Shown: positions 1,152 through 64,000 of the stretch, in pieces
Layout: each line of letters starts with the position of its first letter
Numbering within the stretch: the stretch's first letter is position 1
From: Branchiostoma lanceolatum
Taxonomy: Eukaryota > Chordata > Leptocardii > Amphioxiformes > Branchiostomatidae
DNA: 64,000 bases
NCBI RefSeq assembly: GCF_035083965.1
Contig: NC_089740.1
Span: 14,358,552-14,422,551, forward strand
Direction of reading: 5' to 3'
Notes under the pieces: generated by a model
What the model saw: the letters and a program-made list of their open reading frames with translations, nothing else
Told to the model about the DNA's origin: nothing
Databases searched by the model: none
Program-made: the position numbers and the translations under genes

Positions 1152-17145
<15,994 letters not shown>

Positions 17146-26533: not shown

Positions 26534-26639
26534 CTTCCTTATCCTTTCGGGAATAATATTCAAACTTTAAAGTTTCTCTATAAATCTCACCACCTTTTCC
26601 CTTCTTTTAGAAATTCTTCATCACGATTTGTTCCAGTCT

Positions 26640-27259
26640 TCAATGCTTATGCAGGTTCTGGTAGACAGAAGGTTTTAGTTCCTGGTAATGGTCATCTGGC
26701 TCGCGTGGGTTGAAGATATCTTTGGGATCCTCGTAGTCGTCATTTCCGCTTCCGGCTGGTCTCAAGATGCCCCCTGGAGGACCAACGTTTAAATACAGCC
26801 CGTCATCTGGAGTCGCCACTTCTGGTTGTGGAATGATCCTGTTCTGGTAGTAATTACCTGGTTCGGATGGTGTGTTGAAGGTCTCGGTTGGAAGGTCATA
26901 GTCGTCATTTCCGCTTCCGGTTGGTCTCGAGACGCCCCCTGGAGGATTAATGTTTAAATACAGCCCATCATCTGGAGTTGCTGCGTCTGAGATCATGATT
27001 TGGTTCTCATAGTGAACACTAGGCTCGGGCGGTTGGGGCGGTATGCTTACGGTTTCAATTGGAAGGTCGTAGTCGTTATTTCCGCTTACGGTAGGCATTG
27101 AGGCGTCCCCTGATGGCCCAGAGTTTATTTGCAGCCGATTAACTGAAGTTTTCCCGTCTAGGTTTCGAATGACATGGTTCTGGTTGTTGTTATTACGTTT
27201 AGGTAGTGGAGGTGGTGAGCGAACGGTTTCCATGGGAACTGCGTATACGTGGTCATCAC
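26640..27259 (-). other. cytoplasmic tail with repeated tyrosine motifs
   Basis: The exon encodes 205 residues plus TGA. Tyrosines fall in two recurring contexts: Y-x-N (HYENQ, LYLNI, YYQNR, LYLNV, VYQNL), the Grb2 SH2 ligand pattern, and Y-x-x-P (YAVP, YDLP twice, YEDP), the Crk-type pattern. SVYQNL also fits the ITIM consensus. A class II SH3 ligand, PPPLPKR, lies near the membrane. The tail contains degenerate internal repeats of about 60-65 residues built from ATPDDGLYLN, PPGG and GSGNDDY. Motif meanings are established for vertebrate adaptors; binding here is inferred. Confidence 0.75.
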
Positions 27260-30200
27260 CTGGAATGATAACGATATTCATGAGAGATTCGAATATTTCT
27301 TGCCTGTCATTGGTTTCTGTTATCTAAAACTATAAAATAGTATCTAAAATAGTTTAAAAAGAAGACAGGTACAGTGCCATTGTGTGTGTATGTGCGTGTG
27401 CGTGTATATTTCTGGGTGTGTACATTACATTAATTGCAGTATTTCAAGGTTTATGGACTTTGCCGTTGTTGTTTGGACTAACAGCCCAACCTATTCCTAA
27501 CACACCAGAGTTCAAAACGGAAACCTCAATTCAAGAATTCAAGCCAATGAAAGACAGATGTCGATTTTACCTTCTTCCTCCTCCCTCTTACAGCATCGTT
27601 TCTTCCGGGTGAAAATGTAGACAAGAGCAGCTGCCAATGAGATAGCTGCAAGCACTCCGACCACGATACCTGCAATGGTTCCTGTAGCTACACCTGGAGT
27701 TAAATGTCAAAATACTTTTCCGTAGAAAAAGTACAAGATAGAAATGTGAAGAGCAGTTTTGCAATAATCACGGAACACGTTCAAGAGACTATGGAAGGGT
27801 GGGAATGACTCATAAGGAAAAATGTATAGGTAATTTCTTGATTTATAAATAAGAATACACTACCGTCAATTTGTGCCCTCGGTGTAGCGGGAGATGCACT
27901 TGGAACTGCAAAATATCGTGATGTGACGTTCTACACAACAACTAGCGAAAATGCCCCATAAATGACACATAAGGAAACATTATGGGTAATTTCATTTATT
28001 ATGTTTAGCCATACCTAGTATGGCTCAACATATTGTTATGTTTAGCCATACCTAGTATGGCTCAACATATTGTTTTTGTTCACGTTCTTCTTCTTCTCCT
28101 CCTGCCAAATCTTCAAATGGAATCTACTCCGTCATTTTTGGGCCAAACGACCTGAAATTTGGCATGTAGGTAAAGATGGCAAATACCCTTAGGTGATTTT
28201 TCATTTCTTTCGAAACAGGCCTTAAAATCATTTTTATGGAGGTTTTTTGGGGCATTTTTAGACAATTTTTATATTTTGGGCTCCTGTGCCCTGGTATTGC
28301 AAGCAAGTGACCTGAAATTCGGTACAAGGGTGCCTTGAACATGTCCCTACAGGACTTCAATCACATTTCTGGTGTGCATCACTTCAGAATGCTTCATTTT
28401 GGGGACTTTTGGACCCATTTTCAGACCAAAAACAGGCCAAAAGTGGTATCCACGTTCCATGTTCTATTTGCTGCTGGCCAAAGAATCCATGTTCTATCTA
28501 AGGATCCCCGCGTTCCATTTGCTACTGGCCAAAGAACACTGTTCTATTTAGGTTACCTGAGGTCATATTGCAGGAACACACGCAAGCCTTTGCAGTAAGA
28601 AGCTCTTGGGGTCTCGCAGAACTTGAAGAGAGTTTTTGTACGGGTGATTTTGGAACAGTCCATTTATGCATCAGGAGGGAGATTGTCAAAGTATAATGCT
28701 CTCGCAAATGTTGCCTTTCTACATGCAGTTAATATTTCGATTTGCCCAGGTGTTATTTTGGGACAGCCCACTTCTTGCATGGGGAGGAGTATGGCTAAAC
28801 ATGCTGTATTTGCTCAGGGGCAAATGACGGCCTTTCTAGTTTTTGTTCACGTTCTTCTTCTTCTTCTTCTTCTCCTTCTGCCATATCTTCAAATGGAATC
28901 TACTCCGTCATTTTTGGGCCAAACGGCCTGAAATTTGGCATGTAGGTAAAGATGGAAAATACCCTTAGGTGATTATTTAATTTTGTTGAAACAGGCATTA
29001 AAATCATTTTTATGGAGGTTTTTTGGGGCATTTTTAGACAATTTTTATATTTTGGGCTCCTGTGCCCTGGTATTGCAAGCAAGTGACCTGAAATTCGGTA
29101 CAAGGGTGCCTTGAACATGTCCCTACAGGACTTCAATCACAATTCTGGTGTACATCACTTCAGAATGCTTCATTTTGGGGACTTTTGGACCCATTTTCAG
29201 ACCAAAAACAGGCCAAAAGTGGTATCCCCGTTCCATGTTCTATTTGCTGCTGGCCAAGGAATCCATGTTCTATCTAAGGATCCCCGCGTTCCATTTGCTA
29301 CTGGCCAAAGAACGCGTGTTCTATTTAGGTCACCTGAGGTCATATTGCAGGAACACACACAAGCCTTTGCAGTAAGAAGCTCTTGGGGTCTCGCAGAACT
29401 TGTAGAGAGAATTTTTTTTGCACGGGTGATTTTGGAACAGTCAATTTATGCATCGGGAGGGAGATTGGCGAAGTATGATGCTCTCGCAAATGTTGCCTTT
29501 CTACATGCAGTTAATATTTCGATTTGCCCAGGTATTATTTTGGGACAGCCCACTTCTTGCATGGGGAGGAGTATGGCTAAACATGCTGTATTTGCTCAGG
29601 GGCAAATGACGGCCTTTCTAGTATACAACGTTATTTTGCAGGGTGCAATAAAAACTCCTTCTACCAGTTGGATACGGTCTTTCCAACCGTTGGATCTGCT
29701 TGAAGATTAACGACGAACTACAAGCCCTATTGGAAGCCTCAGGCAGCAGGCATATGATCATTTTGAATTAGATCCCTACCTGAACAAGTTACCTTCGCGT
29801 CGCAATTCTGTCTCTCCTGTGTATTCCCATCACAGTCCGCTCCGCCGTTCGCTGGTGCAGGATTGGTGCAGGTTCGGTTCCGAGTCTGCGTCCCGACTCC
29901 ACACGTCACGCTGCAGCCGGACCACGAACCCCAGTCGGACCAACCGCCATCAACTACATGGAGACAAATGTCGATTTTAGGCATTCTAGAAAAAAATATG
30001 GTGAATAATTTCGTCACAAACGGTTTTATTCATAAGCTTCAAGCAACGTGTCAAGCGGTACACAGTATAGACTGGATGCTGTCATTATTCAAATCGTACG
30101 CAAGAGTTTGAAGAAGCTTTGGGTCTATTGCCTACAAAAAGTACTCGGCGAAGATAATAATTATGCTCCTAGCTTTATAAGAATACCCACTAGATTTTTT

Positions 30201-33200
30201 TTATCTGGCAATGTTTTATCTAAATAGGTTACTCAAAGGCGCAACATGGAGATCAACCAACACGACTTTCCTTTGTATTAAGATATGTGACGAAGACGAA
30301 ATATCGGTTATATAGATGCACTAACTTTCCGTGACCCACGTGGCGACGAAGCCGGGATACACTATACTGTTGTCCGAGTGGAAGATGACCGTCATGGAGT
30401 TGTTGGTGGAGTTCAGCGGCGGAGGGCTGTCGGTGCCGCACCACGTTCCCATGTCAACGGCGGAATCGCCCCGGCCGTCCTGCACCTTGAATAGATAACA
30501 AAAAGGGGTTACTGTAGATGCAGAAATATTCGCGCTGGTTTCATGTTCGCGGTTTTCGCAGTGAACACATTATCGTGAACTTAAAACCACCGCGAACATC
30601 CATTCCAATGTGTGACTGTAGCGCTACTGCTATTTCAAACGCGAACTCAAAACACCCGCGGACACTCCATTTTCTCCCTACCGCGAAATATAAACCACGC
30701 GAACTAAAATGCATTTACAGTATTTTATCTTAAAAGTTCATCTGTGTTGGTAAGAATCATTCTGAGACAAGTTTTAACTGTAATTTCCGACGCAAACATT
30801 GGACTTACCCAAATTCTGCTTGGAGATTAGGTTAGACTGACGTATACCATTCAGTTGAAATTTGATTGCCATATCTAAACCTTAAAGAGTTGTCTTGGTC
30901 TCAAAATAATGAGGAACACGAAGACGAAGAGGAACACGAAGACGATGATGATAGTAATGGTAATGGTGATTTTTTTTTTTGTTTGACAATAAAACACCGT
31001 AACATTGAAAAATAAACTACCTTGACGTAGTCATATCTACAGGTAGAAGAAGGCTCCACGGAAAAAGTGAAGAATGAGAGGAAAATCCGCTCCTCAGGGT
31101 CAACAGTGATGATCCAGACACAATCCAGTCTGTTCGCATAGTTCTGTGGATGTCCCGGGCTCTGCAGGGTCCCGTTTGGGGCGTTCAGATAGCCGCCGCA
31201 TCCTGTGGCAGAGAGAATGGTATTTTCGTCAAGTGAATGTAGTTTATTACATAATATACAGTAGAAACCACTTAATTGCACAACGTATTATCGCACACGT
31301 CTGTTAATTGCATGGAATTCCAAACCGGTTTACTCCATTGTTAGTGACATTTCTGCTCCGCGCATCGTCATTTTGTATATTGTGTCATAAAATGCAGTTC
31401 TGTAAGAAGGGACTTTTCATTGCCATTTATATATACATTTGGTACATTGCTTCTATGTCTATCCATGACCAGTCTGGCATCCATTTATTCTAGTTTCTTT
31501 CGCTGTTTTCATCGCTTCGCTGTAAATAATCATACGCATGCGTCAAAGCGATCGTTGGAACGAATCAGAGCTAAGGATTTCAGGCTAACTCATGACATCA
31601 TTATTCTGACAAACTAGACAATTAACCTAATGCATTAGACGACTATAAAACTATGTAAGGCATCCTTGTATTATTCAAGTTCTGAAACTTTGACCATTAT
31701 TTTAAGAAAGAAATCATTACCGTTATCCATTTCTAATCCATTACCATATAAACATTACTTCAAGAAAGAACATTAAAACCGTCATATAATTATGATGATT
31801 ATATGAACATTACTTCAAGAACGAACATCAAAACCGTCATCTATTTCTAATGATTATATGAACATCATTTCAAGAAGGAACATTAAAACCGTTATCTATT
31901 TCTAACAAGGCTTAATTTGGAGAGAGATTGATATTTACGTGCTTATCACCCCTTGCAAATTTGATCATGCGCCATACCATTTGGAAGTCATGATGGGGCG
32001 AATGAGTCCAGTCTAGATGGGGTTAAAAATCATTTGGTGGTACAGGACTAGTATATGTGTAGAGTGTGCTGATAAAAATGTATATGTTATAACTGGTCAT
32101 GAAAAAATATGAGTATGTTGATATTATATGGGCCACAAAGATTCGATATTGCAGTGTTGTAAGTTGAAAGTGATGAGGAAACGGTTCCGTATATATATGT
32201 GAATAGAATAAATCTTTATTCCATATCATACACATTTTGAAAGACATAGTACATGTACATGTGACTTTTCCGCACCTAGCAGTGGTGCAGTTGGTTCAGT
32301 GTACTCTCCAAACAGAGGAGTGGGTCTGGCTGGTTTTTGACGTGTTTTTAGGTGTATTTGTTAGGCTTTCTTTTTTGTCCCCTTTTTATTATGTCGCCAA
32401 TCGCGGTGAACAAAAATGCCTAAACTGAACGCGTTAAAAACCAGCAGGACCCACACCTCTGCTTGGAGGATAGTTTATTTATTTGACCTACATGTACGTT
32501 TATGCAAGGCCATCTGGTTACATGACCTGACAGTCCCATGTCCGATTATGAAATGCAGTGGGTTAACAAACTTTCCTTTCTGATTATGCAAATTAGCTCC
32601 TCATTTGCATAATCAGTCATTGATTATGTAAATCACCATATAAGCTCTGTAGATACCAAATATCACGACGATCTGTCGACCCCTTCTGTTACCATTCATG
32701 TCCGAATGTCAAAACAAAAACACCCACTGCAGTTCTTGACAAGCCGCTAGGGGACCCAAATTTACAGAACTTACTTTCTGTGGCATAAACTATCTACCAT
32801 ACAAAAATCACGACCATACCACTTTCAGAAAATATGCCTCGAAATTTTGAAGCTCTGTTGCAGTACCTTAGGTGTCCGCTAGAAGGCCCATTATCGAACT
32901 TGACCTTCCTTTCTGTAAACCCTACCCATCCACTAGATATCATACAGATCCATCAACAGCTTCTTGAGTTATGCTGGCGACATACAAATACACATCCACA
33001 CAAAGCCTGCTGCATTACCGACGGAAAATACAAGGGGAACCATTTTTGAACTTGACCTCCGTTTTCACAACATCTACACACCTGCAAAAAATCATGAAGA
33101 TCCATCAACGTCTCCGTCACTTTTTTTGCCTACATAAAAACACACAAAAATGCAAAGTCTGCTGCAGTACTGTTGAAGAACGCAAGGTGAACCATTTTCG

Positions 33201-36200
33201 AACTTGACCTTCCTTTGCACAACCACTACACATCTACCGAAAATCATAAAGATTCATTTAAGCTTTCTTGAGTTATGCTCCTGACATACATTCAGACCCA
33301 CCCAACAGATTTTTAAACCGAAAACATAATCTTCTCCGAGTACAAATACTCTGCGAAGATAATGAAACTCATAGACACCTTGCGTATTGGTTCGAATCCG
33401 GAAACCGGCCGAAAACAGATTTATCTTTGGTTTATTGCAAAACAATAGTTTACATTTCTAGTTAAAATGGAAAACCAAAATGTTTTATCATATTTCTGTA
33501 TATAATGTACGTAACAGCAATATTGAGTTTAAACGTCATGTTTATCTCCATGGAAAAAGGCTTTTTCATGGATATACTGTTTTGCTTGCGTTTGGTGTTT
33601 GTGTGTATGTATGTGTCACCGGATACTTAAAGTCACCATAACTGTAGAACCTGTACATGGATTGTAATGATTTTTGGTATGTGGGTGGGTGTTAAGAGGA
33701 GGAAGGTCAAGGTCGATTTTGGGCCCCCTGGCATTTGTGATTGGAACTGCAATGGCGTATTTTTAAAAATCTTCAATGTAGAAGAACTGAAAAGAGGATC
33801 GACAGATCGTCATGTTATTTGGTACACAGGTAGGTTAGACCAAGATGTACACACTTAAGTGCAAACTATGCAAATGAGACCGAATTTGCATAAGTAAGGA
33901 GGTAAATCGTTTGCATGTGTGTCGCTGGATGCTTAAAGTCAGCATAACTGTAGAACGTGTAGATGGATTGTAATGATATTTGGTATGTGGGTATGCGCTG
34001 GGAGGAGAATGGTCAAGGTCGATTTTGGGCCCCCTGGTTTGTGTCCCTGGAACTACAATGGCCTATTTGTAAAAATGTTCTAAAGGGGTATAACTGAAGA
34101 AAGGAACAACAGATTTCCATGTTATTTGGTACGCAGGTAGGTTGGACAGAGATGTACACACTGAAGTGCAAATCATGCAAAGTTAGTGTGTTTGCGTGTG
34201 TGTGCGCGTGTGTGTATGTTTGTGTCACCGTGTGTGTATGTATGTGTCACCGGATGCTTAAAATCAGCATAACTATAGAACGTATAGATAAATTGTAATG
34301 ATATTTGGTATGTGGGTAGGTGTCGGGGGGAGAAAGGTCAAGGTCGATTTTGGGCCCCCCGGTATGTGTCACTGGAACTGTAATGGCGTATTTGTCAAAA
34401 TCTTCAAAGGAGAATAACTGAAGAAAGGAGCGACAGATTTTCATGTTATTTACTATACAGGTAGCTTAAGCAGAGATGTATACAATGAACTGCAAATTAT
34501 GCAAATTGGACTTAATTTGCATAAGTAATGAGGAAAATCTATATCTGCAGTGTTGTCATGTGGCACGCCACCTGTCAGTAGCTATTTATAGCGAAAGTAG
34601 GTCAGACATCTTCCCTTTCAGTGTGGGTCATACCATTGAGCGATATAGAATGGGGGGAACTGGTTTAATAGAAAAACAACGTTTCATGGAGATTTTGGGT
34701 CCTAAGACTCTTGTTTCAGTCTGCTTTTGCCAAAATAGAAAGAGAAACTTATTTCATTAAATTCTAATCAGAAAGATAACGATACACGGCGATGGTCATC
34801 CAAGAGATCATATTGACACAAAAATGATAGGATTGAAGCACGATGATGTTTGAACATGACATGGTTCTGCCAATTTGCCTACCGTGGGTAATAATACGAA
34901 GTAATTGTGTTTGCACAAGTTGAAATACGTGTATTTTGCTTTCCTTTTCTCTATCCTAAAGGAATATATGTAACATGATAATTGACGGTTACCTGGACAA
35001 GGCACCCCCGTTTCGCAGTCTCGGTTCTCCCGTGCGTCCCCGGTACAGTCTGTTCCTCCGTTCGCTGGTGCAGGATTGGTGCAGGTTCGGTTCCGAGTCT
35101 GCGTCCCGACTCCACAAGTCACGCTGCAGCCAGACCACGTACCCCAGTCCGACCAACCTCCATCAACTGCAACTATATGACGCAAGACTTTAGGCCAGTG
35201 TAAAAAGGCAAGGACTAGCAATTGGCTTGAATAGAAACACATCCACAAAAATGGAGATATAGGGCTAAGCACATGTTCCCAACATATCCTCGTGCCTGAT
35301 CATTTGATTAATATCATTGGCAGGTGCATGAAAGGGTACATTTTTGCCCCAGGTGTGCAAATTAATCGATCTGATAAAGTGTACACTTTGGGGGTTAAAA
35401 TCTTGGTGAGTTTCTTTTTGTTCAACATATTATGATAGAGATTTGTGAGCTGTACAATGGTTGAATCCTCAACTAGCTTGAAAATCTCATCCGGTTTTGC
35501 ATCAGGGTCGGGGGCCTTGTCGCCAAACGATTAATTGGGAGATTGGGAGAGAGGCCTTCTGTTTCCATTTCTGTCATATTTGGCACAGAAATTGTGCCAC
35601 AAAAATAACCTTACAAACACTTATCAGTGACAATCCCTAGTATCTAAGGTACCACATACCTAGCTGGCAAATAAACCCCTTGCGGCTGGTACACCATAGA
35701 TCATTCCAGACGTGCCCGGAACCAGCCACTTCGGCGCAGTCTTCGCCGCCGTAATCATCGTTCGGCTCACCGGGCTGCCAGTTGTTGTAGCCGGTTGACG
35801 CCAAGGATTGGCCGTCTTCAAACACCCACTGTGTCTCGTTGTCAGCGTCAGTCAACCCGATCCAACGCCGTGCAGTTCCTCCTCCTCCCAGATTGTGGAT
35901 GAAAGTGTTGGTCGCGACGTCTTTCGGCATGGCCAACAGTCCACCATCTGCGGCACACGTCTGTCTGGCCTCATCGTACGTCTTTAGCTCAGCAAAGTCC
36001 TTGTAGCAAACTCCGTTGAAACTGACATAGCCTGCTATCGGACATACTGTAGAAAGAGGAAACGAGGATAGGTAGCTTGATGAAACACGTATTTGCCATT
36101 GGAAAGAAAAAAAATTGGGTATGACATAACGACTGATGTAATTAGCTTTATGGCAATGTAAATTCCGTTGTGTCATCGACGTTAAAAGGTTGAGTTGTTC

Positions 36201-39200
36201 CAAAATCCATACAGCTGGCTGCACATGTAAATAAAAAGCTTAACCAACTAAGACAGTGACAGACCGCAATAACAATTAAGGGTTAATGACCCGCCCCGAG
36301 GTGTGTATGGTGTCATAACGCCTGGCCCTTTGTAATAGCTTAAGCTAGTTGGGCAACCCTGGCATGTTTGTAAATACAATGCATGCCAAACGAATAAACA
36401 AACAAACAACGCCTGGCCATGTGCTATAACCACCGAATAAAACCACCGATTAGCGACACTTAGAGTAGACAATTCCTGTATGGCGCATATACGCTTATAC
36501 AATCAAGAATGCATTTCGGAATTTACACTTGAACAGAAGACGATAGATTTCTTTTTGAAACCCAACATTTCCACAGATGATATTTAATAACATTGAAATA
36601 TTGGCATGTCAAATCTTTTTCAAATCTATTATGATCTATTATCATCATTCCCCCCTGCTGGGTATCCTTTTGACAATGCTGTGGGCGGCTCCACTTAAAG
36701 TTCCGCCCGTTCAGATTTGACTTGTATTAAAATGGTTTATTCTATTTTGTCATATGCTTACAAAAGATTTGATTTATCCTGTTAAGAAAGTAAGCATATT
36801 TGGGAACAAATAATCATTATACAATTGTTAAATAATGATCGCGTGTGTGTTATCCTCTACATAATGGGAGGAATGATGATCACGGGTGTGTTATGGCGAT
36901 TAACACATGGGCAATGGAGGCTTCTGATTGGTCGGCGCCATCTGGCCATGTGATAATATTAATATAAAGACAGGCATTTACAACATGTAGATAAAGGGAT
37001 TGTCACATATGCCTTACAAACCTTCCTACCGCCAGACATCGGCGAGATGATATTTTGTACTTCCGAACGTTATTGTTTGGCCCAGACATAATCGTACAAG
37101 CACATTAGTTTAACACATACCTATAGCTAGCTGACAGATGAATCCCCTGGTGTAGGTGCATGGTATATCATGCCAGAGGTGACCGGAACTAAAAAGTACG
37201 GCGCAGTCTTCCCAAGCACCAACATCGTTCGGCTCACCCGGGTACCAGTTGTTATAGCCGGTTGCCGCCAGGGATTGGCCGTCTTCAAACACCCACTGTG
37301 TCTCGTTTTCAGCGTCGGTCAACCCGATCCAACGGGGTGTGACTCCTCCCAGATTGTGGATGAAAGTGTTGGTCGCGTTGTCTTTCGGCATGGCCACCAG
37401 TCCCCCTTCTGCGGCACACGTCTGTCTGGCCTCATCGTACGCCTTCGGCTCAGCAAAGTCCTTATAGCAAACTCCGTTGAAACTGACATAGCCTGCTATC
37501 GGACATACTGTAGAAAGAGGAAACGAGGATAGGTAGCTTGATGAAACACGTATTTGCCATTGGAAAAAAAAAATTGGGTATGACATAACGACTGATGTAA
37601 TTAGCTTTATGGCAATGTAAATTCCGTTGTGTCATCGACTTTAAAAGGTTGAGTTGTTCCAAAATCCATACAGCTGGCTGCACATGTAAATAAAAAGCTT
37701 AACCAACTAAGACAGTGACAGACCGCAATAACAATTAAGGGTTAATGACCCGCCCCGAGGTGTGTATGGTGTCATAACGCCTGGCCATGTGCTATAACCA
37801 CCGAATAAAACCACCGAGTGAGCGATCATATAGCCTATCCAAAAAAAGAGTAGACAATTCCTGTATGGCGCATATACGCTTATACAATCAAGAATGCATT
37901 TAAGAATTTACACTTGAACGGAAGACAATAGATTTCTTTTTGAAACCCAACATTTCCACAGATGATATTTAATAACATTGAAATATTGGCATGTCAAATC
38001 TTTTTCAAATCTATTATGATCTATTATCATCATTCCCCCCTGCTGGGTATCCTTTTGACAATGCTGTGGGCGGCTCCACTTAAAGTTCCGCCCGTTCAGA
38101 TTTGACTTGTATTAAAATGGTTTATTCTATTTTGTCATATGCTTACAAAAGATTTGATTTATCCTGTTAAGAAAGTAAGCATATTTGGGAACAAATAAAC
38201 ATTATACGATTGTTAACAAAAAGATTACCTCCCCCTCTACATAATGGGAGGAATGATGATCACGGGTGTGTTATCCTCTACATAATGGGAGGAATGATGA
38301 TCACGGGTGTGTTATGGCGATTAACACATGGGCAATGTAGGCTTCTGATTGGTCGGCGCCATCTGGCCATGTGATAATATTAATATAAAGACAGGCATTT
38401 ACAACATGTAGATAAAGGGATTGTCACATATGCCTTACAAACCTTCCTACCGCCAGACATCGGCGAGATGATATTTTGTACTTCCGAACGTTATTGTTTG
38501 GCCCAGACATAATCGTACAAGCACATTAGTTTAACACATACCTATAGCTAGCTGACAGATGAATCCCCTGGTTTTGGTGCATGATATATCATGCCAGAGG
38601 TGACCGGAACTAAGAACTACGGCGCAGTCTTCACTAGCACCAATATCGTTCGGCTCAGTGGGGTACCAGTTGTTATAGCCGGTTGCCGCCAGGGTTTCGC
38701 CGTCTTCAAACACCCACTGCCCCTCGTTGTCGGCGTCAGTCAACCCGATCCAACGAGGTGTGGCTCCTCCCAGATCGTGGATAAAAGTGTTGGTCGCGTT
38801 GTCTTTCGGCATGGCCACCAGTCCCCCGTCTGCGGCACACGTCTGTCTGGCCTCATAGTACGTCTTCAGCTCAGCAAAGTCCTTGTAGCAAACTCCGTTA
38901 AAACTGACATAGCCTGCTTTTGGACATACTGTCGGAAAATCAAACGAAGATAGGTATACATGTACGTATATTTAGGAAAAAAGTATTGTCATTCGCAAGA
39001 AACATTGAGCATAAAATAAAGACTACAGTAATTGGGCTAATAAAGATTTGCTCGCATCATCAACATTAGAAGTTTCAGGTGTTGCAAAATTAAACAACAA
39101 ATTGGCTGCACATTTTAAGTAAAATGCTAATCCAACCTAAACAGTGACAAACCGCAATAACAACATAGGGGCATTCACAAAGGAGAGATGAAGAGCTAAT

Positions 39201-39410
39201 CACATATTCCGTCAAGAAAATTTTCCATTAGGACAATGGCGTAAGGTCCGTACCCATATACTCCATGAAATCTTATCAATCCACAAATGAAATATATACA
39301 TTATGTGTACCTTGAGCTGTCACTGTTGCAGTCGTCACTATCAGTACTAAGACCGTCCACTTCCAGAAATCGGATGCCCATGAACCCGTCATCCTGTCAA
39401 CGTACACCAC
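26640..39410 (-). CDS. type I receptor: CTLD x3, TSP1, CUB, TSP1, TM, tyrosine-rich tail
   Basis: Coding exons on the minus strand: 39311-39392 (signal peptide), 38542-38928, 37121-37507 and 35660-36046 (CTLDs), 34993-35166 (TSP1), 31021-31202 and 30326-30485 (CUB), 29780-29953 (TSP1), 27864-27905 (linker), 27571-27693 (TM), 26640-27259 (tail). They total 2718 nt, 905 residues. Every domain boundary is phase 1, so the frame is continuous. The 5' UTR of the signal-peptide exon runs to 39410. The protein should sit in the plasma membrane with lectin, TSP1 and CUB modules outside and a 200-residue tail inside. The tail has no enzyme domain; its tyrosine and proline motifs suggest adaptor recruitment, so the product is probably a recognition or adhesion receptor. 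Additional small exons in the long introns cannot be excluded. The one-gene assembly is an inference from phase, order and strand. Confidence 0.72.
27571..27693 (-). other. transmembrane exon
   Basis: Phase 1 to 1. It encodes the hydrophobic run GTIAGIVVGVLAAISLAAAL followed by VYIF and a stop-transfer TRKKRCCKREEEE. Two cysteines at the inner face could be palmitoylated. It joins the extracellular linker exon 27864-27905 (PSASPATPRAQID) on one side and the tail exon on the other. Confidence 0.85.
28003..29622. repeat. 770-bp tandem duplication inside an intron
   Basis: Copies at 28073-28840 and 28841-29622 are very similar over their whole length (tcttcaaatggaatctactc near the start, aaatgacggcctttctagt at the end). 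They are preceded by a doubled ttagccatacctagtatggc. The open frames inside are shared by both copies but carry no recognisable domain. It lies between the linker and second TSP1 exons of the receptor gene. Confidence 0.85.
29780..29953 (-). other. second TSP1 domain exon
   Basis: A 174-nt phase-1 exon. DGGWSDWGSWSGCSVTCGVG, then TQTRNRTC and NPAPANGGADC, is a complete thrombospondin type 1 repeat with six cysteines, WxxW for C-mannosylation and CSVTCG for O-fucosylation. It is nearly the same as the exon at 34993-35166, so the two are recent duplicates. Confidence 0.93.
30326..31202 (-). other. CUB domain in two exons
   Basis: Exons 31021-31202 and 30326-30485 encode CGGYLNAPNGTLQSPGHP, then NYANRLDCVWII, CRYDYVKVQDG, WCGTD and NSIVYPGFVATW, a full CUB fold of about 110 residues with four cysteines and the acidic residues of the calcium-binding subtype (E before the CRYD, D in SDNS). 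The acceptor at 30486 is preferred over one six bases further in because it restores the consensus KVQDG. A GRGDS string follows. Confidence 0.9.
30511..30721. mobile_element. MITE with ACTGTARATGCAGAAA ends
   Basis: The left end actgtagatgcagaaat is mirrored by aaatgcatttacagt on the right, with many cgcgaa/ttcgcg words inside. A second copy of the family lies at 42397-42577. It sits in the intron between the two CUB exons. Confidence 0.7.
31705..31907. repeat. tandem repeat, unit about 62 bases
   Basis: Three to four copies of a unit with tatatgaacattacttcaag, aacattaaaaccgt and tatttctaat. Intronic. Confidence 0.7.
32304..32470. mobile_element. foldback MITE related to 15323-15480
   Basis: ctctccaaacagaggagtgg and the complement of ccacacctctgcttggagga form the ends. 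Inside, ctggctggtttttgacgtg mirrors cgcgttaaaaaccagcagg. The shared terminal CTCCAARCAGA suggests one family. Confidence 0.65.
32855..33300. repeat. tandem repeat, unit about 125 bases
   Basis: Three to four diverged copies share gaacttgacctt/c, cttgagttatgct and gatccatcaac. They lie just upstream of the 33606 satellite in the same intron. Confidence 0.6.
33606..34545. repeat. satellite, three copies of 303-325 bases
   Basis: Copies start near 33617, 33920 and 34245 with gtcaccggatgcttaaa-tca and share ggtcaaggtcgattttgggc, atggcgtattt and ttcatgttattt. The units are head to tail. Confidence 0.8.
34993..35166 (-). other. first TSP1 domain exon
   Basis: 174 nt, phase 1 to 1: DGGWSDWGTWSGCSVTCGVG, RTCTNPAPANGGTDC, ending PCPG. 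All six cysteines and the WxxW and CSVTCG motifs are present. An alternative acceptor six bases upstream would add two residues in frame. Confidence 0.93.
35660..36046 (-). other. C-type lectin domain exon c (membrane-proximal)
   Basis: 387 nt, one complete CTLD of 129 codons. It contains GYVSFNGVCYKDF, WIGLTDADNETQWVFEDG, QPGEPNDDYGGEDC and VWNDLWC. EPN plus WND are the calcium and mannose-type sugar ligands, so this domain should bind sugar in the classical way. It is followed by a phase-1 donor. Confidence 0.95.
36328..36407. mobile_element. short retro-insertion with A/C-rich tail
   Basis: The 80-base insert ends in aataaacaaacaaac and is flanked by the direct repeat aacgcctggcc (36317-36327 and 36408-36418). 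The paralogous intron near 37775 has a single copy of that string and no insert. Confidence 0.75.
37121..37507 (-). other. C-type lectin domain exon b
   Basis: 387 nt. The WIGLTDAENETQWVFEDG core and YPGEPNDVGAWEDC are kept, but the usual WND is LWHDIPC. Replacement of the Asn calcium ligand by His may weaken or change sugar binding. The exon is very similar to exon a at 38542. Confidence 0.95.
38542..38928 (-). other. C-type lectin domain exon a (N-terminal)
   Basis: 387 nt: GYVSFNGVCYKDF, WIGLTDADNEGQWVFEDG, YPTEPNDIGASEDC, LWHDISC. EPN is present; WHD replaces WND as in exon b. The Q-V-C-P junction with the signal-peptide exon is in frame. Confidence 0.95.
39311..39410 (-). other. signal-peptide exon with 5' UTR
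   Basis: The acceptor tgtttag lies at 39411 and the ATG at 39390-39392. It encodes MTGSWASDFWKW followed by the hydrophobic core TVLVLIVTTATVTAQ, ending in a phase-1 donor (82 coding nt). The exon at 57583-57682 has the same length, phase, acceptor string and TTATVTAQ end. Confidence 0.85.
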
Positions 39411-42396
39411 CTAAACACAAATCATCGATTCAGGATTGAGTTCCAAGATCATCATTATGCAAGTTCACAATCCCATTTTACACGCCAAAAAAGTAAAACA
39501 GTGGCAAACAAAAATAAAGAAAACGAAAGAAAAAACAAACTTATTCTTAAATCACTCGCATCAGCCAAATACAGCTCTGACATTCCGCAATACAATTGCG
39601 AATGGAAAGGTGGTGCCGTCGAACTGCCCAAAAAATAAAACGTTGGCAAACAAAACAAAAGAAAACAAAAAAAAAATACAAATTCATCTAAAATCACTCG
39701 CATCAGCAAAATACAGCTCTGACATTCTGCAATACAATTGCGTATCGGAAGGTGGTGCCGTCGAACTGCTCAAAGGAATAAGACCACACCCATTAACTGA
39801 AGAATGAGACATAAACAGCAAAAAAACAAAAAGCGTTTTCGATGCCGGAAGCTTAATAGCCTGACTATACTTGTAACATGGGCGTATTAACATATAAACT
39901 GTAGTTGAATTGATAGAACCAATGGATAGACTTATCAACTTCAATGTATCTGAAACCAACACAGAAAAGAAAGGAAACTTGACAGCATTGTTTATACTAG
40001 TACATGCCTGAGATATTAATTAACTCAGGTTTGATATGAATAGAACTATCCTAGATTGGAAATCGTTTTCACCCAGTGCAACAGAGGCATCTCCATTGAT
40101 TAGCTTTGAACAACGCTAGGGGTTGGATCTTCTGATGATTTATAGTCAACCGCTTGCTAGTACCTGCAAATCTGGTACCTCACGCTGGGGGCGCACTTAT
40201 CCCGGTTGAACTATGAATAATATATATATATACAAAATACCTGTACTTGTGTATTATTACCGGGATAAAGTTACAAAAACAGCCAACATATATCTAAACC
40301 GCTCAAGTATTTACACAAAATGCTCAGTAAGTATCGACGTTAGAAGAGAGTTGGTAAAAATACAAAGGTCGCATTTTATATTCTAATTTCATGCCAGCTT
40401 TTAATATTGACTGGAATAACTAATACCTATTTTAATATGGTTTGTGCGCACAGTGATTTTGCCTGCATCATAAAAATGAATAAAAAAAATATTTTTGACT
40501 TGATCATATTGTATTTTGACACCCGCCAACACTTGCCAGGCAACTCTCGGTTGACCCTTAGATCAGGGTGTGACCCCTACTAACGCACATGTACAGACTT
40601 GTTCTAACATGACCCGTGTGTCTCAACATCCGGTATTTGGCTACTGAAATTTGGCAAAAAATTTTGCTACCTAAAACACAATCTATCGCTTCATCTCTGT
40701 GTGTGCCACAGACATCGAACTAATTATCACAGTATCTAAGAAAATAGATGAACAGTTTTGAACGTGTCAAAAATCAGAAAATGGTTGGTGGCAAACATGT
40801 CTAAATCACGATAATTTTTATTTGTCTCATTTCGAGTGTAATTCTTGTACTAATATGTCTCGAATACAAGTAGTCTGCATGCAAATTAGAAATGGCCTGT
40901 TAACAATGCCTGTCTGTCTGCCAGGCACTTATATATGACACCATGAAGCGCCAAACGAACTGGAAGGAAAATTTGCCAGGGGACATGGTCCGTGTTTTGT
41001 CCCTGTCCTGTCAAGCAAGAACCTTTTAACCAAGGCCACACGAAGATACACGACATCCAAACACGCACTATTTTTGCCCCTTTCCTAATTAAAAATTACC
41101 TTTTCTTTTAACAATATTGAACGATATCACATCCTAGGTACTAGATTTTTTTGTTCACACGACCCTTTCTGCCATTTCCCACCGATCAAGGTGCACCGAA
41201 GTAAGAGGTAATTAAGGTCAATGAACTCATCGGTTGGCACACATCGTAGCTGAAGACAACTACAGCCACCATTTCACACCAGGACCGGCCACTGCGACAT
41301 ATTCCTAGTCAGCTTAACCTAGCCAAAAATTGATCACTTAGATACTTTCAAATTGATCTGTTGCTTGTCACCACGCTATTTGTAAACGTTAATTTCTTGA
41401 TCGTTTCATATTAGCCGCTGAGAGTTGGCCGAGGCAGTTCCCTTTTGCTCTTGATAGATGTGATCCGAGGAGTCTAGGATATGGTAGATTCCCGGCTACT
41501 TCTAACCACACGCCGACCACTAATTATGGGTGATTTGGCGCGTGGGGGGACACACCAGCCACGCGTCGTACATTACGGGTTTGTGTTTGATTTTTTGAAA
41601 CCTGTAATTAAACTACAGTAGGCCTGTCCTTTCCCAATGTGTCATCAAGTTGTGTACAGAAATAAAGACTGCAAACGAAAATCAGGAGAAAAACCTCGCT
41701 CGTTTTGCAAAGCCGCAAATGCTTCACCAACATTAGAGATTTACCATATGATAAAGAAAAACTGTACGAAGCTCGTCAAATTTGGTGCGGCTTGATCAGG
41801 TGTCATCAGGTCATTTGTTGTGAAGGGCGTTTCTACCGTTCACACGCCCCTTTCTGCCCTTTGCCACTGTGCGGTGTGCAATGAAGCGATGGGTATCTAA
41901 ATTTAAACTTTGCAGACACCGGTCCGTTCACATGGGCTGAAAATATTTCATATTTACTCGAGAGACAAACAAAAGACTTAATCTATACATATACATAATT
42001 TGCATTAACTTTAGAACAACTCATTTATTAATTATTATATTTCAAGTATCTATCGATGGGTTAAGATCATCGATATGATTAGAAATGCTGTTAAATTTGA
42101 ATATATGACAGTTTAAAACACGCGTCAACGCTTGCCAGACAACTCTTAGTTGACCTTGAGACCAGTGTGTGACGCCTATTAAACGCACATATACACAGTT
42201 ATCCTGACATAACCCCTATGCGACCACACTAGACAACACACACCTCCTAAAATTTGACAGAAAAAGTCGCATGCCACTTCAAATACAATCTATCATTTCA
42301 CATTTGTGTCAAGAGGAATTAAAACTATGGTCACGATACTGTAGAATAGATTTGAACGTGCTTTTCTTCATTACCTATACTGATCACATTTCAAGT

Positions 42397-57582: not shown

Positions 57583-57682
57583 GCGTTGCACGCCGACCCG
57601 ATGGCGGTCCCATGTACACCAGGTTTTATTAAGTGGGCAGTTCTGGTGCTAATAGCAACGACTGCAACAGTAACTGCTCAAG
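57583..57682 (+). other. signal-peptide exon of the plus-strand CTLD gene
   Basis: The acceptor atgtttag ends at 57582, followed by 18 untranslated bases, the ATG at 57601, and 82 coding bases ending in a phase-1 donor. It is identical in layout to 39311-39410. Confidence 0.85.
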
Positions 57683-60600
57683 GTAAACCTTATGTTTAAA
57701 TGTTGTGTCATACTCATCCTTATTGAATGTTAATTAGCCATCCAAGGGAATATGTGATTAGCCCTTTACTTTGCGAATGCACCCATTTTTGAAATGGTGT
57801 TGTTGTTGCGGTTAGCCACTTATGTGCAACATCTCGACCTTTTAATGTTTATGATGCGAGCGAATTTATATTGTCATCAGCCTAAATACATTAATCGTTT
57901 TTTGTACTCATTGTTTTGGGGAAATGGCAAATAAGTTTTTTTTCACCAACTAATATCGTCGTTTTCTTTTCCTACAGTATGTATAATAGCAGACTACGTT
58001 AGTTTTAACGGAGTTTGCTACAAGGACTTTGCTGAGCTGAAGACGTACGATGAGGCCAGACAGACGTGTGCAGCAGATGGGGGACTGCTGGCCATGCCGA
58101 AAGACAACGTGACCAACACGTTCATCCACAATCTGGGTCCTCCCGCTGCAAGGCGTTGGATCGGGTTGACTGACGCTGACAACGAGACGCAGTGGGAGTT
58201 TGAAGACGGTCAAACACTGGTGTCATCCGGCTACAACAACTGGCAGCCCAATGAGCCGAACGACGGAAACGGTCGCGAAGACTGCGCCGAAGTGCTTGGT
58301 TCCGGGCACGTCTGGAATGATGAGTGGTGTAGCAAGCGGAAGGGGTTTATTTGCCAGCTAGGTATGTGCTATGATTAGATACTTGGGATTGCTACTGATA
58401 GGTGTATGTAAGGTTATTTTTGTGGTACAATTTCTGTGCCAAATATGACTTCCAGAATTAAAAACATAATGCTATCTCCCCAATGTTTGGCGACAAAACC
58501 CCCGAACCTGATGCAACACCGGCTGAGATGTTCAAGCTTGCTTAGAATTCAACCATTGTACATGCGCCTGCCAAGCGGTTTCCCGGGGCTTCTATGATCG
58601 TTCTGGATGTTATTCTGGCTCTGTCGGTTGTGTTTTCGAGGAGCTACTGTTCTTCCGACACCGCATCCTTCCATGTCATGCGTTCAGTGTAGACGGCCTA
58701 AGCTGTAACCAAGTTCTTTATTGTTCCGTTAAAACAATGCCCTTCTATATATGCTTGGTGCTCTTCAAGTTTTGGAGTTCACGGAGGTTTTTTGGCGCGA
58801 GGTATGATGTGCAGTATGTTCCTGTGATAATAGATCTATCGGGATGGGTTGAATATAATTTTCATAGCTAGAATACTATATTCGGTGTCCCGAGAACTCC
58901 CAGACACACTCCCACCTGTACGAAGTAAGACACCACGTAAGTAGGTCATCTGTCATCGACCTGCGTGCCGGGATGCCAGAACGTGATAACAAGGTATACG
59001 GTGACATGCGGACGGATTGCAGAAATTCATGTGCAGTTCTGGGAATTCTTGTAAAAAGGGCGTCGAATATAAAATCAAGCTCTCTTTCTTCAAATGCCAT
59101 CTCCCAGATGACTGCCGGACATGATGCAACACCCGATAAGGTGCTCAAAGCAGTAATCAAACATCGTACGACTAGCAAATCTTTATCAGAACATGTGGAA
59201 CGAAGGACCCCCCCCCCCCCGGCCTGGTAACTCATAAAACAGATAAGCAAAAAGAAAAGATAGAAAACAATACATGTATTGTCACCTGTGCAAAAAAATC
59301 TACCTCGAATTGTTACCTCCAGCAGGCGAATTGGCAGAAACATGTTTTAACACCATCGTGCATTTGGCTTTTATCTCTCTCGTCTGTGTAAACGTGTTAC
59401 CTAGCTGGGAGGAACATTGTCATGTATCGTTGAACATCGGTGATATGAAACAAAGAGTTTCTCTTACTATTTTGTACTGAAGTTTTCTCAAATATTTATG
59501 TTACACAGACTTTAGTTTCACAGAAATGTGATGATTGTTTCCTTTCCTCATCTAGACTTTACTAAATGATTATTATCTAACGCAAAGTGAAAACTGTTTC
59601 CAGTTTTTTTTTTCTGATCTTGACCCATATGTATAACCTTTACCTGTGTGCTTCATAGTATTGGAGGCTAGGAATGGCTGGCATGTGTGTCTGTGTGTTG
59701 AACTAGAATACATTAGGTCCGTGGGTTCCATGTCGGTTGACATGTAGAGTACATGTACTTTATAATTTTCTCTGCAGGTGCCATTACGGACATTAAGGTC
59801 ATCCAAACCAGCTAGAACATAATTTTCGATCTTCTTTCTTTCCCTCCCAGTCTGTCACCCCACTCCGCTTGGAATGGAATCCTCTGTCATACCTGACAGC
59901 AGCATCACTGCATCCTCCTCCCATAGTCCGATGTCCACTAACTACTTACTTGAGCTAAGACTAATGATAAGAAAAAATTAGGATTGGCGCACGGCCTCGA
60001 GCTGTCTAAATTGAGAAATGATGGTACAAAAATACCTGTGGGGGAAATATTTTGTTACTTCTGTATGTCAAAAGCGGTGGAAGAAGAAATACATTTCATC
60101 TCAAGCTGCCCCTTTAACGATCAATGAACACAATAGCTATTTAAAGAAACTTAGATCTACCACAATTTCCTGACATTTACTGACATTCAACATTTACTGA
60201 CGAAAAGAATAATAGTAATATTCAGTGCAATCAAAAGCTCAGTTTTCGTCCTTGCAGAAACTACAACGAGCCTGTCTGTGACAACTACAATGATACCAAT
60301 TACGACAGCACCTTTGCTATCTACAGCGCCAGAAGGTATGTCAAGTTTGTTACCTCAATATATCTTGAAGCGATTAAATGATAGCGTCAAATACAAAATG
60401 TTAAAATTGCCCATTTGACTTAACCCTCAAGACACCATAGTTTCAGCCATGTAAATGTTTTACCCTGACATGCGAAACAGACCCCTTCAAAAACAGGAAA
60501 GCTAGCGGGGATTATGTGATTATCAATGAAATTTTCAAAGCAGGAAAAGGAACCTATTGTCCCCTCCATGTAGACTATCTAAAAGCACATTTCCGAAGGG

Positions 60601-63600
60601 AACTTTCTCCAAAACATAGTCCAAAAGTTATCTTGTCCCCAATGTAATTCAGGTAGAAAGGACGACCCCAACAATTATTAAGGAATCCCCATTTCTGGCT
60701 GTTTAGGAAAACTATCCTTCTCAATACTTACCAAAAGACTGTCAACCTTCTTTGAAGAAAAAAAAAGGCATAAAACAAAACAGGATTCCGAAAAAACTAC
60801 AGGACATCTGATAACATCGATCTTCACACTGAAAACTTTTACATCTAAATAATAAGCAATCTGGAAAACGCTTATTTGCTTCTTGTGTTGATTTATCAAA
60901 AGCCTTTGACTCCATCTGGCACTGTTATACAAACGTCTTTCCAAAGACATTTCAGGTAAACACTTTGATATAATCAAAGACTTATACAACCAGTCCGAAG
61001 CCGGTGTCAAAACTAAGGTAGGCTTCAGTGAAAGTATCCCTGTTGAAATTGATGTCCGTAAAGGGTGCGTCCCACCGTATTCAATCCGTACATAAGTGAA
61101 CTCATAGATTTACTCAATGCAGAACACCTAGACGCCCCCTTATTTGCATTATTTGTATCCGTAGATGATTCAACTGCCATAATTTACGTACATCACATGT
61201 GCTAAGCCCATTTTCAACATGTTTTTATTTGCCGATGTTTTAGTTGGTTAGTTTTTTACTTGCATGTGTAACCAGTAGTTGTTTTGATTTTAAAAACAAT
61301 CAACCTTTTAATGTTGATGTTGGAGCGAATTGATATTTTCATCAACCCAATTACATTAGAGAATTATTCTGGCAATTGGCAGATACGTTTTTCATTAACC
61401 ATCTATCATCGTTTCCTCTTCCTACAGTATGTCCAGTAGAAGGTTACGTCAGTTTTAACGGAGTTTGCTACAAGTACTTTGCTGAGCTGAAGACGTACGA
61501 TGAAGCCAGACAGACGTGTGCCGCAGAAGGGGGACTGGTGGCCATGCCGAAAGACAGCGAGACCAACGCTTTCATCCACGATCTGGGAGGAGTCACACGG
61601 CGTTGGATCGGGTTGACCGACGCCGTCAACGAAGGACAGTGGGTGTTTGAAGACGGACAAACGCTGGTGTCATCCGGATACGACAACTGGTGGCCCGGTG
61701 AGCCGAAAGGGGTCGTTCACGAGAACTGCGCTGAAGTTGTTGGTCCCGAACACTTGTGGAATGATCTATCGTGCAACGGTTTCACCAGAGGATTTAGCTG
61801 TCAGCTAGGTATTTGTCATAATTACACACTTTAACGATCATAGCTACTGATGAATAAGTGTTATTTTTGTGGCACAGAAGTAAGATAAGTGTGGAAATTA
61901 AAAATCATTGCCATTGTAAAGTGTCTGGGATGATTCTACTTCACTGTAAGGAAAGTACTAACGTTGCACTCTTAGTTCTGGCATAATATTTGCTCCAAAA
62001 GTAGTCAGGCGTCTGGCAAGCGGTTTGCCGGGGCTTCTATGATCGTTTTTGATGCTATAATGGCTCTGTCGGTTGTGTTTTCGAGGAGTTACTGTTGTTA
62101 TTTCCGACACCGCATCCCTCCATGCCATGCATTCAGTGTAGACAGCCCAATTACATTAGAGGTTTTTCTTTTATTCTGGCAATTGGCAAATACGTTTTTC
62201 ATTAACCATCTATCATCGTTTCCTCTTTCTACAGTATGTCTAAAAGCAGGCTACGTTAGTTTTAACGGCGGTTGCTACAAGTACTTTGCTGAGCTGAAGA
62301 CGTACGATGAGGCCAAACAGACGTGTGCCGCAGACGGGGGACAGCTGGCCATGCCGAAAGACGACGCAACCAACACTTTCATCCACGATCTGGGAGGAGC
62401 CACACGGCGTTGGTTCGGGTTGACTCGTGATGACAACGAGGGTCAGTGGGTGTTTGGAAACGGCCAAACCCTGACGTCAACCGGTTACAGCAACTGGAGC
62501 CCCGGTGAGCCGAACGATGATCTCGATGACGAAGACTGCGTTGAACTTCTTGATTCCGAACACTTATGGAATGATTTACCGTGCAACCACACCAGACAAT
62601 TTATCTGTCAGCTAGGTATGTGCTTTAATTACACACTTTGACGATCAATCTTATTTTTGTGGCACAGAAGTCAGAAGTAAAAAAGAATGCAATCTCCCAG
62701 ATGTTGGCAGACAAAGGGCCTTGAGTGATATGTTAAATCTTTGGTCATTCAGAAAGTTTGTTTAAGATACGTTTCTGTTGCATTTGTTGCATTGGCTAAT
62801 TAAGTGTAATTAACTCACAAAATTTAATCATTGAATATACCACACATTTCCAGGAATCTCGGGGTTGAACCTGGATGATGCCGGGATTGGTCACCTCACG
62901 GTTTCCTGGACAGAGGGAAGTCTTCCGATCTCGCGCTACAGTCTCCGCTACCAGCCGGCAGACGGGTCGGGCTCGTACCAGGACCTCTCCCCCGCACCGG
63001 CAGCGGGAGACACCTCGGCTACCGTGTCGGGATTGCTTCCCGACACAATCTACACCCTCACCCTAACTTCTTTTGGCCAGGGCGACCAATCAAACGGAGT
63101 TATCACCGGGACATACACTACAGGTGATTTGGAAGGACAGAAATTTCGGGCCAACCATGAACATGTATTGTATACAAACCTGAATAGTGTTTGATAGGCA
63201 TCCTTGCAAGAAATATTGGCAGAAATATTTAATTTTCCCACAACGCTTGTAATCTATTTCTTTTCGGTCAGTTTGTGTCGGTGCTCGAAAACAAATGTGC
63301 TGCCTGGGCTTTAATTTGGTGTTAAAAGATTTGGGTTTGTCAAAAAGGAAGCTACCAGGGTAAATTTGAATGTAACCGTCTCTTTCTCTAGCTAAGAGTT
63401 TTGATATCAAACAAGTAGTTGAAACTGAAGCTATTATCTCTGCAAAGCAACAATGATATTAGATAGCTTTCTTTGCAGACCTTACCTATTGGTAAGATGT
63501 CATGTTCTTTGCAGAGGTGACAATAGACTATAGAAAAGTATTTGTACACAACCAGGTATTGTTCTCACCTGCTAACGTTTCGATGTCTATATTCTACCAA

Positions 63601-64000
63601 CCTGATGAAATTATTTTCGGAAGTGACGATAGACTGTTTTACCATTATAGATTCGGTCGTCGTGAACGTAGAGTGCGACCAAGACAGCATGGCCATTTCT
63701 ATTCCCCTCGCGGCTCTGCTGGCTGTGGACGTGGCCAACATGCACCTTCTGGACGCTGACTGTGGCGCCACTGTGGACGAAGTGGACGGTGTCGTCATGT
63801 TGGAGACGAACCTTCAGCAGTGCGGAACCATACAGGAGGTAAGGCAGCACATCTTAATTCTCACCCATCTCTCTCCTAATCCGTGCGTTGCTAAAACATG
63901 AAGGTGGAGACCAGACTTAATTGACTACTTTTAAGTTTGTTTTGCTAGATATCCATCTGTGATATATTGCAACATGGCATTATGCATGCGAACATGGCCC
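57583..64000 (+). CDS. secreted or membrane protein: CTLD, Thr stalk, CTLD x2, FN3, ZP (3' partial)
   Basis: Coding exons 57601-57682 (signal peptide), 57978-58361 (CTLD), 60258-60335 (stalk), 61428-61808 (CTLD), 62235-62615 (CTLD), 62854-63123 (FN3), 63651-63838 (start of ZP); the frame is open at the window end, 588 codons so far. The 5' UTR part of the first exon starts at 57583. All junctions from the signal peptide to the ZP exon are phase 1. The start ATG at 57601 opens MAVPCTPGFIKWAVLVLI, ending TTATVTAQ as in the minus-strand receptor. ZP domains polymerise and usually sit near a C-terminal membrane anchor, which would lie beyond the window. The gene is a paralogue of the 26640-39410 receptor for the signal peptide and CTLD parts only. 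It probably functions in extracellular recognition. Confidence 0.75.
57978..58361 (+). other. C-type lectin domain 1
   Basis: 384 nt. WIGLTDADNETQWEFEDG, QPNEPNDGNGREDC and VWNDEWC: EPN and WND are intact, predicting calcium-dependent mannose-type binding. It is most similar to exon c (35660-36046) of the opposite-strand gene, and the downstream intron matches too. Confidence 0.95.
59851..59981 (+). pseudogene. broken discoidin (F5/8 type C) exon
   Basis: After a good acceptor (tccctcccag) the frame reads CHPTPLGMESSVIPDSSI and TASSSHSP, the opening of a discoidin domain (C..PLGMES..I.D..ITASS). The frame then loses the consensus and reaches TAG at 59979 with no donor. LINE-tail sequence begins at about 59984, so an insertion may have cut the exon. 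It is in phase 1, compatible with the surrounding gene, but skipped in the model. Confidence 0.55.
59984..60180 (+). mobile_element. LINE C-terminal remnant
   Basis: Reads AHGLELSKLRNDG, then CMSKAVEEEIHFISSCPF, the same Cys/His motif as at 11150-11215, followed by stops. It lies directly behind the broken discoidin exon. Confidence 0.65.
60258..60335 (+). other. Thr-rich stalk exon
   Basis: 78 nt, phase 1 to 1: ETTTSLSVTTTMIPITTAPL, then LSTAPE. Many Thr/Ser with Pro suggest an O-glycosylated, mucin-like spacer between CTLD 1 and CTLD 2. Confidence 0.75.
60860..61200 (+). mobile_element. LINE reverse-transcriptase core remnant
   Basis: Reads KRLFASCVDLSKAFDSIW, GKHFDIIKDLYNQ, EIDVRKGCVPPYSI and, after shifts, LFALFVSVDDST. 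These match the AFD, GCV and YADD blocks of non-LTR reverse transcriptases with damage at the catalytic YADD. It lies in the intron before CTLD 2. Confidence 0.75.
61428..61808 (+). other. C-type lectin domain 2
   Basis: 381 nt. WIGLTDAVNEGQWVFEDG and LWNDLSC are present, but EPN is replaced by EPK (WPGEPKGVVHENC). Loss of the Asn ligand makes classical mannose-type binding unlikely. Confidence 0.95.
62235..62615 (+). other. C-type lectin domain 3
   Basis: 381 nt. WFGLTRDDNEGQWVFGNG (WIGL changed to WFGL), SPGEPNDDLDDEDC and LWNDLPC: EPN and WND are intact. The upstream intron (62010-62145) repeats 58565-58695, showing duplication of a CTLD-plus-intron unit. Confidence 0.95.
62854..63123 (+). 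other. fibronectin type III domain exon
   Basis: 270 nt, phase 1 to 1, about 90 residues: LTVSWTEGSLPISRYSLRYQ, then ATVSGLLPDTIYTLTLTSFG. It carries the FN3 hallmark Trp in strand B and the L-x-P-x-T-x-Y-x-L pattern in strands E-F. Confidence 0.92.
63545..63590. mobile_element. end fragment of the 6358-6656 MITE family
   Basis: tacacaaccaggtattgttc and cacctgctaacgtttcgatg match the terminal arm of the element at 6358-6656, 60 bases before the ZP exon. Confidence 0.6.
63651..63838 (+). other. first ZP-domain exon
   Basis: 188 nt: VVVNVECDQDSMAISIPL, NMHLLDADCGATVDEVDG and ETNLQQCGTIQE match the N-terminal half of zona pellucida domains (V-x-C...M-x-I-x-I-P, L-x-D-x-x-C, CGT). It ends in a phase-0 donor. 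The remaining ZP exons lie past 64000. Confidence 0.8.

Follow-up and report, generated by a model that had tools for sequence, protein, structure and literature searches.

A candidate lancelet lectin receptor with CTLD, TSP1 and CUB modules and a predicted adaptor-docking tail

Introduction

Does a run of minus-strand exons in the lancelet Branchiostoma lanceolatum encode a single receptor, with lectin domains outside the cell and docking sites for signalling adaptors inside it, or have separate modules been lined up by prediction? The question is raised by a locus in a 64-kb window, by which we mean the whole stretch of DNA that was analyzed. As far as the available text of the sources goes, exon shuffling is extreme in lancelets and biased to domain exons of phase 1-1 (PMC4284660), Lectin_C is over-represented among dispensable lancelet genes (PMC12373286), and 300 genes of B. 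floridae encode multi-domain CTLD proteins (CTLDcp), in which the CTLD is joined with other domains, as it is here (PMC10140915). Also, lancelets have fucolectin-CTLD-CTLD-CUB-APEC proteins, which share with the present gene consecutive CTLDs followed by a CUB and differ by their fucolectin and APEC domains; neither TSP1 nor a tyrosine tail is mentioned in the available text (PMC12373286). Because of these many CTLD genes, the 1-1 phase shuffling, the dispensable Lectin_C genes and the CTLD-CTLD-CUB proteins, a new domain combination is less surprising in a lancelet than in a vertebrate.

Results

Exon-by-exon reading gave a predicted minus-strand gene running from 39392 to 26640, with 11 exons in one frame and a product of 905 residues. 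All 10 introns are GT...AG, and the first in-frame stop is the TGA ending at 26640. The product is composed, in this order, of a leader, three CTLDs, a TSP1, a CUB, a second TSP1, a short linker, a transmembrane segment and a tail. Exon 1 (39311..39392) carries the start codon and the leader (MTGSWASDFWKWTVLVLIVTTATVTA), supported by a homologous leader exon at 57601 in a plus-strand paralogue. The CTLDs, recognized by Pfam and alignment, occupy one exon each: exon 2 (38542..38928, CTLD 1), exon 3 (37121..37507, CTLD 2) and exon 4 (35660..36046, CTLD 3), the last being supported also by a PDB sequence search. Pfam likewise identified the first TSP1 in exon 5 (34993..35166), the two halves of the CUB in exons 6 (31021..31202) and 7 (30326..30485), and the second TSP1 in exon 8 (29780..29953). 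Exon 9 (27864..27905), a 42-base juxtamembrane linker, was placed by exon reading and codon score; exon 10 (27571..27693), with the transmembrane segment and an RKKR stop-transfer sequence, by hydropathy and codon score; and exon 11 (26640..27259), with the cytoplasmic tail and the TGA stop, by motifs, internal repeats, fold and codon score. The linker is the weakest exon: it can be skipped without a change of frame, and its in-frame codon score of -0.327 falls below what this stretch reaches in other frames. The leader exon, too, scores better in another frame.

The GT/AG borders and the single open frame to the TGA uphold the claim of the initial annotation that the exons join without a phase break into 905 residues. 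The span of 39410 to 26640 given there is right at its 3′ end, and the ATG is actually at 39392; similarly, the tail of 200 residues is indeed long and counts 218 residues from RKKR. Clean joining is nevertheless weaker evidence than was claimed, because 9 of the 10 joints are phase 1, the only exception being the phase 0 joint inside the CUB.

Repeats were also observed in and around the gene. Two copies of a 142-base unit lie directly upstream of the leader exon (39485-39774), and a block of about 760 bases occurs twice in direct orientation, with 95.9% identity, within the intron that separates the second TSP1 from the linker (28085-29622). Similar stretches, translated DEGGYKLSHIWDSVLTAKAPPTSATY, were found by eye 20 kb apart, at 26380-26600, just past the 3′ end of the gene, and at 6281-6541; they are probably an interspersed repeat. 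The repeat next to the gene's 3′ end had raised a suspicion of kinship with a ribozyme-bearing transposon, to which Rfam gave no support: no RNA family reached the gathering threshold in the window.

Above cut-off, Pfam found Lectin_C in three stretches (E 7.8e-61), CUB in one (E 6.9e-30) and TSP_1 in two (E 6.3e-27). Four further TSP1 models in the output were set aside as relatives of TSP_1; Chordopox_A33R and Tfb2_C, which pass their cut-offs and overlap the CTLDs, were taken by judgement as cross-matches, and Podoplanin, CD99L2, Syndecan and other labels fell below cut-off. Mean hydropathy over 19 residues exceeded the threshold of 1.6 in a single stretch of the protein (window starts 657-670), the transmembrane segment, after which RKKR comes next. 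The leader stays below 1.6; visual inspection and the homologue at 57601 identified it. Pfam, hydropathy and this homologue agree with the order first read from the DNA (signal peptide, three CTLDs, TSP1, CUB, TSP1, transmembrane segment, tail), and by sequence the predicted gene has the leader, CTLD ectodomain and single transmembrane segment of a type I CTLD receptor. Among the best 60 of 153 PDB sequence matches to CTLD 3, the top ones were the yolk sac IgY receptor, the PLA2 receptor, DEC-205, the macrophage mannose receptor and collectins.

At the positions of the CTLD alignment that we take to be the calcium ligands (EPN, E and WND), CTLD 3 has EPN, EDC and WND and is the sole one of the gene's three CTLDs with the full mannose-type set, while CTLDs 1 and 2 both have EPN, EDC and WHD. 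An EPK earlier in CTLD 2 was rejected as its sugar-site triplet, which is EPN. CTLD 3 is thus a predicted calcium-dependent binder of mannose-type sugars; CTLDs 1 and 2, in which the WND site is altered, may bind otherwise.

The first two CTLD exons have diverged more than the introns that follow them. In the introns after CTLD 1 and CTLD 2 (the pair 36047-37120/37508-38541), 963 of 981 ungapped columns are identical, a comparison that omits 146 gapped columns; between the two exons there are 31 mismatches in 384 positions (Fisher p 2.5e-7 against the introns). When only synonymous differences are counted, of which there are 9, p is 1.2e-4, and since synonymous sites also differ, selection at the protein level alone does not account for the divergence. 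Mismatch density shifts sharply downstream of the CTLD 1/2 pair and upstream of the CTLD 2/3 pair, whereas on the other flank of each pair the introns themselves have diverged. At 15 of the 31 differing sites, both bases also occur within the set of the window's four remaining CTLDs. Such a pattern fits paralogues having exchanged exon sequence, or introns having been homogenised.

The last exon was compared with non-coding sequence by a codon model trained on 990 codons from the domain exons of this window. In frame, its 205 codons contain 0 stops, where the five remaining frames have 9, 18, 10, 9 and 10, and its codon score of -0.027 lies above every one of the 5,000 samples drawn from introns (mean -0.40, highest -0.208). 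Read in its other frames, the exon scores from -0.062 to -0.218; because two of these values, -0.062 and -0.076, are nearly as high, the excess is mostly one of base composition, and the preference for the frame is slight. AlphaFold gave the 205 last-exon residues alone a pLDDT of 46.8 (low confidence), which is no more than mild support for disorder because it was run on a single sequence. A query with the 220-residue tail found no relative in Pfam to E 1; none was found in the PDB to E 10, and no second copy of the tail in the 64-kb window at E 0.01.

A recount of the tail motifs returned the numbers already reported for it, five YxN, four YxxP and one PPPLPKR. Nine of the 11 tyrosines fall within YxN or YxxP (mean of 2.4 in shuffled tails, with at least nine in 2 of 100,000 shuffles). 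At least five YxN arose in 195 of 100,000 shuffles and at least four YxxP in 4,616 of 100,000, the latter being a modest excess that alone is not striking; all these shuffles overstate the excess, because internal duplication multiplied the sites and the motifs were chosen post hoc. The tail is in fact built of about 3.5 tandem units of roughly 57 residues with YxxP, YxN and YLN sites, so the sites are not independent. The units contain VYAVP, DYDLP, DYDLP and DYEDP. The SH3-type site lies in unit 1, which, when aligned, is without tyrosines at the places of YEN/YQN and YLN in units 2 and 3. Between units 2 and 3, dN is 0.256 and dS 0.468 (ratio 0.55, Fisher p 0.075), and the other five pairs gave ratios of 0.28 to 0.85 on short, partly saturated alignments. 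The signal of selection on the units is weak, and the ratios hint at constraint and are no proof of it.

The last site of the tail, SVYQNL, is at once a YxN site and the one ITIM-type site: it matches [STV]xYxx[LIV] and, of the ITIM forms, fits the wider one only, [SILV]xYxx[ILV]. An ITAM has the form YxxL/I x6-12 YxxL/I and a hemITAM the form DEDG-YxxL, and the tail has neither: YQEL and YQNL are 4 residues apart, and there is no DEDG. The ITIM has elsewhere been given as I/V/LxYxxL/V (PMC8211107).

A divergently oriented CTLD paralogue lies on the plus strand from about 56.0 kb onward (56002-63898) and runs toward the end of the window. The similarity extends over the DNA upstream (40061-39648 vs 57063-57492, 76.7%), over upstream DNA and leader exon (39641-39298 vs 57355-57695, 74.7%), and over the CTLD region (36202-35451 vs 57825-58562, 81.6%). 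Homology and a leader scan placed a leader exon of the same type at 57601..57682, and sequence comparison a CTLD closest to CTLD 3 at 57978..58360; alignment added a second CTLD exon with EPK and WND (61428..61807) and a third with EPN and WND (62235..62614), all on the plus strand. Further on, the same strand has a candidate FN3 exon (62854..63123), phase 1 at both ends (Pfam fn3 E 4.7e-9, open frame 62835-63191), and a candidate start of ZP-N coding sequence (63651..63898), the acceptor of which is seen (Pfam ZP-N E 2.1e-6, open frame 63527-63898). These two candidate modules were assigned to the plus-strand gene by strand, order and phase, as was done in the minus-strand model itself. The paralogue thus has the same 5′ half and a different 3′ half, which supports genuine module shuffling. 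At this locus a common leader-CTLD head stands ahead of different 3′ halves and, if both gene models hold, one head would be common to two genes with two kinds of body. Between the two CTLD genes, an H-type lectin domain (E 6.8e-12) was observed on the minus strand at 46763-48200; next to it is a long open frame made up of repeats of the AELAAKDQKV type that resemble a coiled coil.

Discussion

Our preferred reading, to which we give a probability of about 0.6 on the basis of sequence and analogy, is an exon-shuffled lancelet lectin receptor that would signal through phosphotyrosine and SH2 adaptors (Grb2-like and Crk-like) and, by clustering, lead to uptake or adhesion. In this explanation we infer a single transcript, a sugar, a kinase, adaptors and an outcome, as follows. 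One gene would give a type I membrane receptor built by shuffling of 1-1 phase modules, in which TSP1-CUB-TSP1 would serve as a stalk or as a second binding surface. Microbes or glycosylated surfaces would cluster the receptor, upon which a Src/Lck-family kinase would phosphorylate the flexible tail. The pYxN sites would then recruit SH2 domains of the Grb2 type and the pYxxP sites those of the Crk type, PPPLPKR would be a standing SH3 site of the Crk/Grb2 type, and recruitment of Grb2 and Crk would lead through actin remodelling to uptake or adhesion. That the receptor signals through tyrosine phosphorylation can well be inferred from the tail motifs and from precedents in lancelets.

The receptor is comparable in its logic to DCBLD2, Cas and LAT, of which the last two serve here as comparison scaffolds. 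A further and tentative proposal is that it would unite in one chain a lectin receptor with LAT-like (multiple pYxN, Grb2) and Cas-like (multiple pYxxP and a PxLPxK-type SH3 site, Crk) scaffolds, amplified by the tandem 57-residue docking unit; the binding of a glycan would then feed straight into two adaptor branches, with no need of a separate co-receptor. The members of the mannose receptor family, made of a ricin-type domain, an FNII domain and 8-10 CTLDs, also have CTLDs in series and are among the top PDB matches of CTLD 3 (best 60 of 153); here there are only three CTLDs, Pfam finds neither ricin-type nor FNII domains, and the tail is long with multiple tyrosines.

According to the available text of the sources, the Grb2 SH2 domain recognizes pYxNx, the CrkII SH2 domain pYxxP and the CrkII NSH3 domain PxLPxK, and a PEAK1 peptide reads PPPLPKK (PMC10279719). 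Lancelets have Grb2, which forms complexes there, and its knockdown lowered the uptake that one lancelet receptor mediates (PMC10199209); for Crk, a B. floridae EST plasmid was used in a study of orthologues (PMC5043372). DCBLD1 and DCBLD2 likewise have a CUB ectodomain, one transmembrane segment and several YxxP sites, of which the present tail has four, and these sites are needed for binding of the CRKL SH2 domain after phosphorylation by Src-family kinases or Abl (PMC6029619). The DCBLD family differs by its combination of CUB, LCCL and discoidin domains: here the CUB comes with no LCCL or discoidin match in Pfam, and with CTLDs, TSP1 and YxN instead. In choanoflagellates, transmembrane proteins such as A9VAL3 have cytosolic YxxP repeats, with three TSP1 repeats outside in A9VAL3; they differ in that 3 of 5 have SH2-like domains, and the available text does not mention CTLD or CUB (PMC5043372). 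The lancelet BbLcLRR, also a transmembrane receptor, has a tail with multiple tyrosines and is a substrate of Lck in human cells; it differs by its LRR and WSC ectodomain and by being ITIM-type and inhibitory (PMC8211107). Among the literature matches listed (titles and starts of abstracts, with subscription papers mostly outside the scope, so that the absence is weak), none is a receptor with the order CTLD-TSP1-CUB-TSP1-transmembrane segment. What is unusual is that a lectin ectodomain comes with an amplified tail predicted to serve two adaptors.

The prediction could instead be a chimera of annotation, in which the CTLD protein, secreted or otherwise separate, stops short of the transmembrane and tail exons and these sit in another transcript, or are linked in rare read-through RNA alone. 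Errors are common in lancelet gene models, and ESTs have refuted a predicted Lectin_C-fn2 fusion (PMC4967905). The phase of the joints points the same way, because at phase 1 even unrelated lancelet modules would be expected to join cleanly, and a secreted form would be easy to make, since retention of the intron after the second TSP1 adds 13 residues and then meets a stop. However, the transmembrane and tail exons lie on the same strand about 2 kb beyond the second TSP1. Tail exons with a start of their own, which the initial annotation had named as the case against its model, were looked for in six introns lying between CTLD 3 and the tail. A scan that recovered both known leaders (39392 and 57601) as positive controls found there no ATG exon that resembles a leader and has a phase-1 donor. 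Two short candidates of 21 and 24 residues in the TSP1-CUB intron are without a usable donor. A separate gene for the tail was rejected on these grounds, and we regard the chimera as unlikely.

If the chain is indeed one, its tail may act differently. The C-terminal SVYQNL and other phosphotyrosine sites might recruit SH2 phosphatases instead of Grb2 and Crk, making an inhibitory lectin receptor that damps responses. The match of SVYQNL to [STV]xYxx[LIV] speaks for this, as does, in the available text, the lancelet LRR receptor phosphorylated by Lck: this receptor has an inhibitory effect in Jurkat cells, SHIP1 is found in association with it, and HDYDDP, one of its three major sites, resembles NDDYEDP in the tail (PMC8211107). 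A single ITIM-type site nevertheless faces nine YxN and YxxP sites and is itself a YxN site, and we hold inhibition to be quite improbable. The receptor may also serve in adhesion or endocytosis without immune recognition, the tail being mainly a cytoskeletal scaffold of the Cas or DCBLD kind. TSP1 and CUB are widespread extracellular modules, in keeping with such a role, and YxxP repeats are a characteristic feature of scaffolds in adhesion (PMC5043372, PMC6029619). On the other hand, CTLD 3 retains the full sugar-site signature, and CTLD exons that diverge more than the adjoining introns would be better in line with recognition. This possibility is a doubtful one; its mechanism overlaps that of the adaptor-signalling lectin receptor we prefer, from which it differs in ligand and purpose, and the odds of the two are not exclusive.

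If transcribed as predicted, the gene would give lancelets a candidate lectin receptor with an adaptor-docking tail of its own. A lancelet phagocytic receptor that has no cytoplasmic tail associates with Grb2, and a co-receptor has been suggested for it in the available text (PMC10199209); a receptor of the kind described here would be one candidate for that co-receptor.
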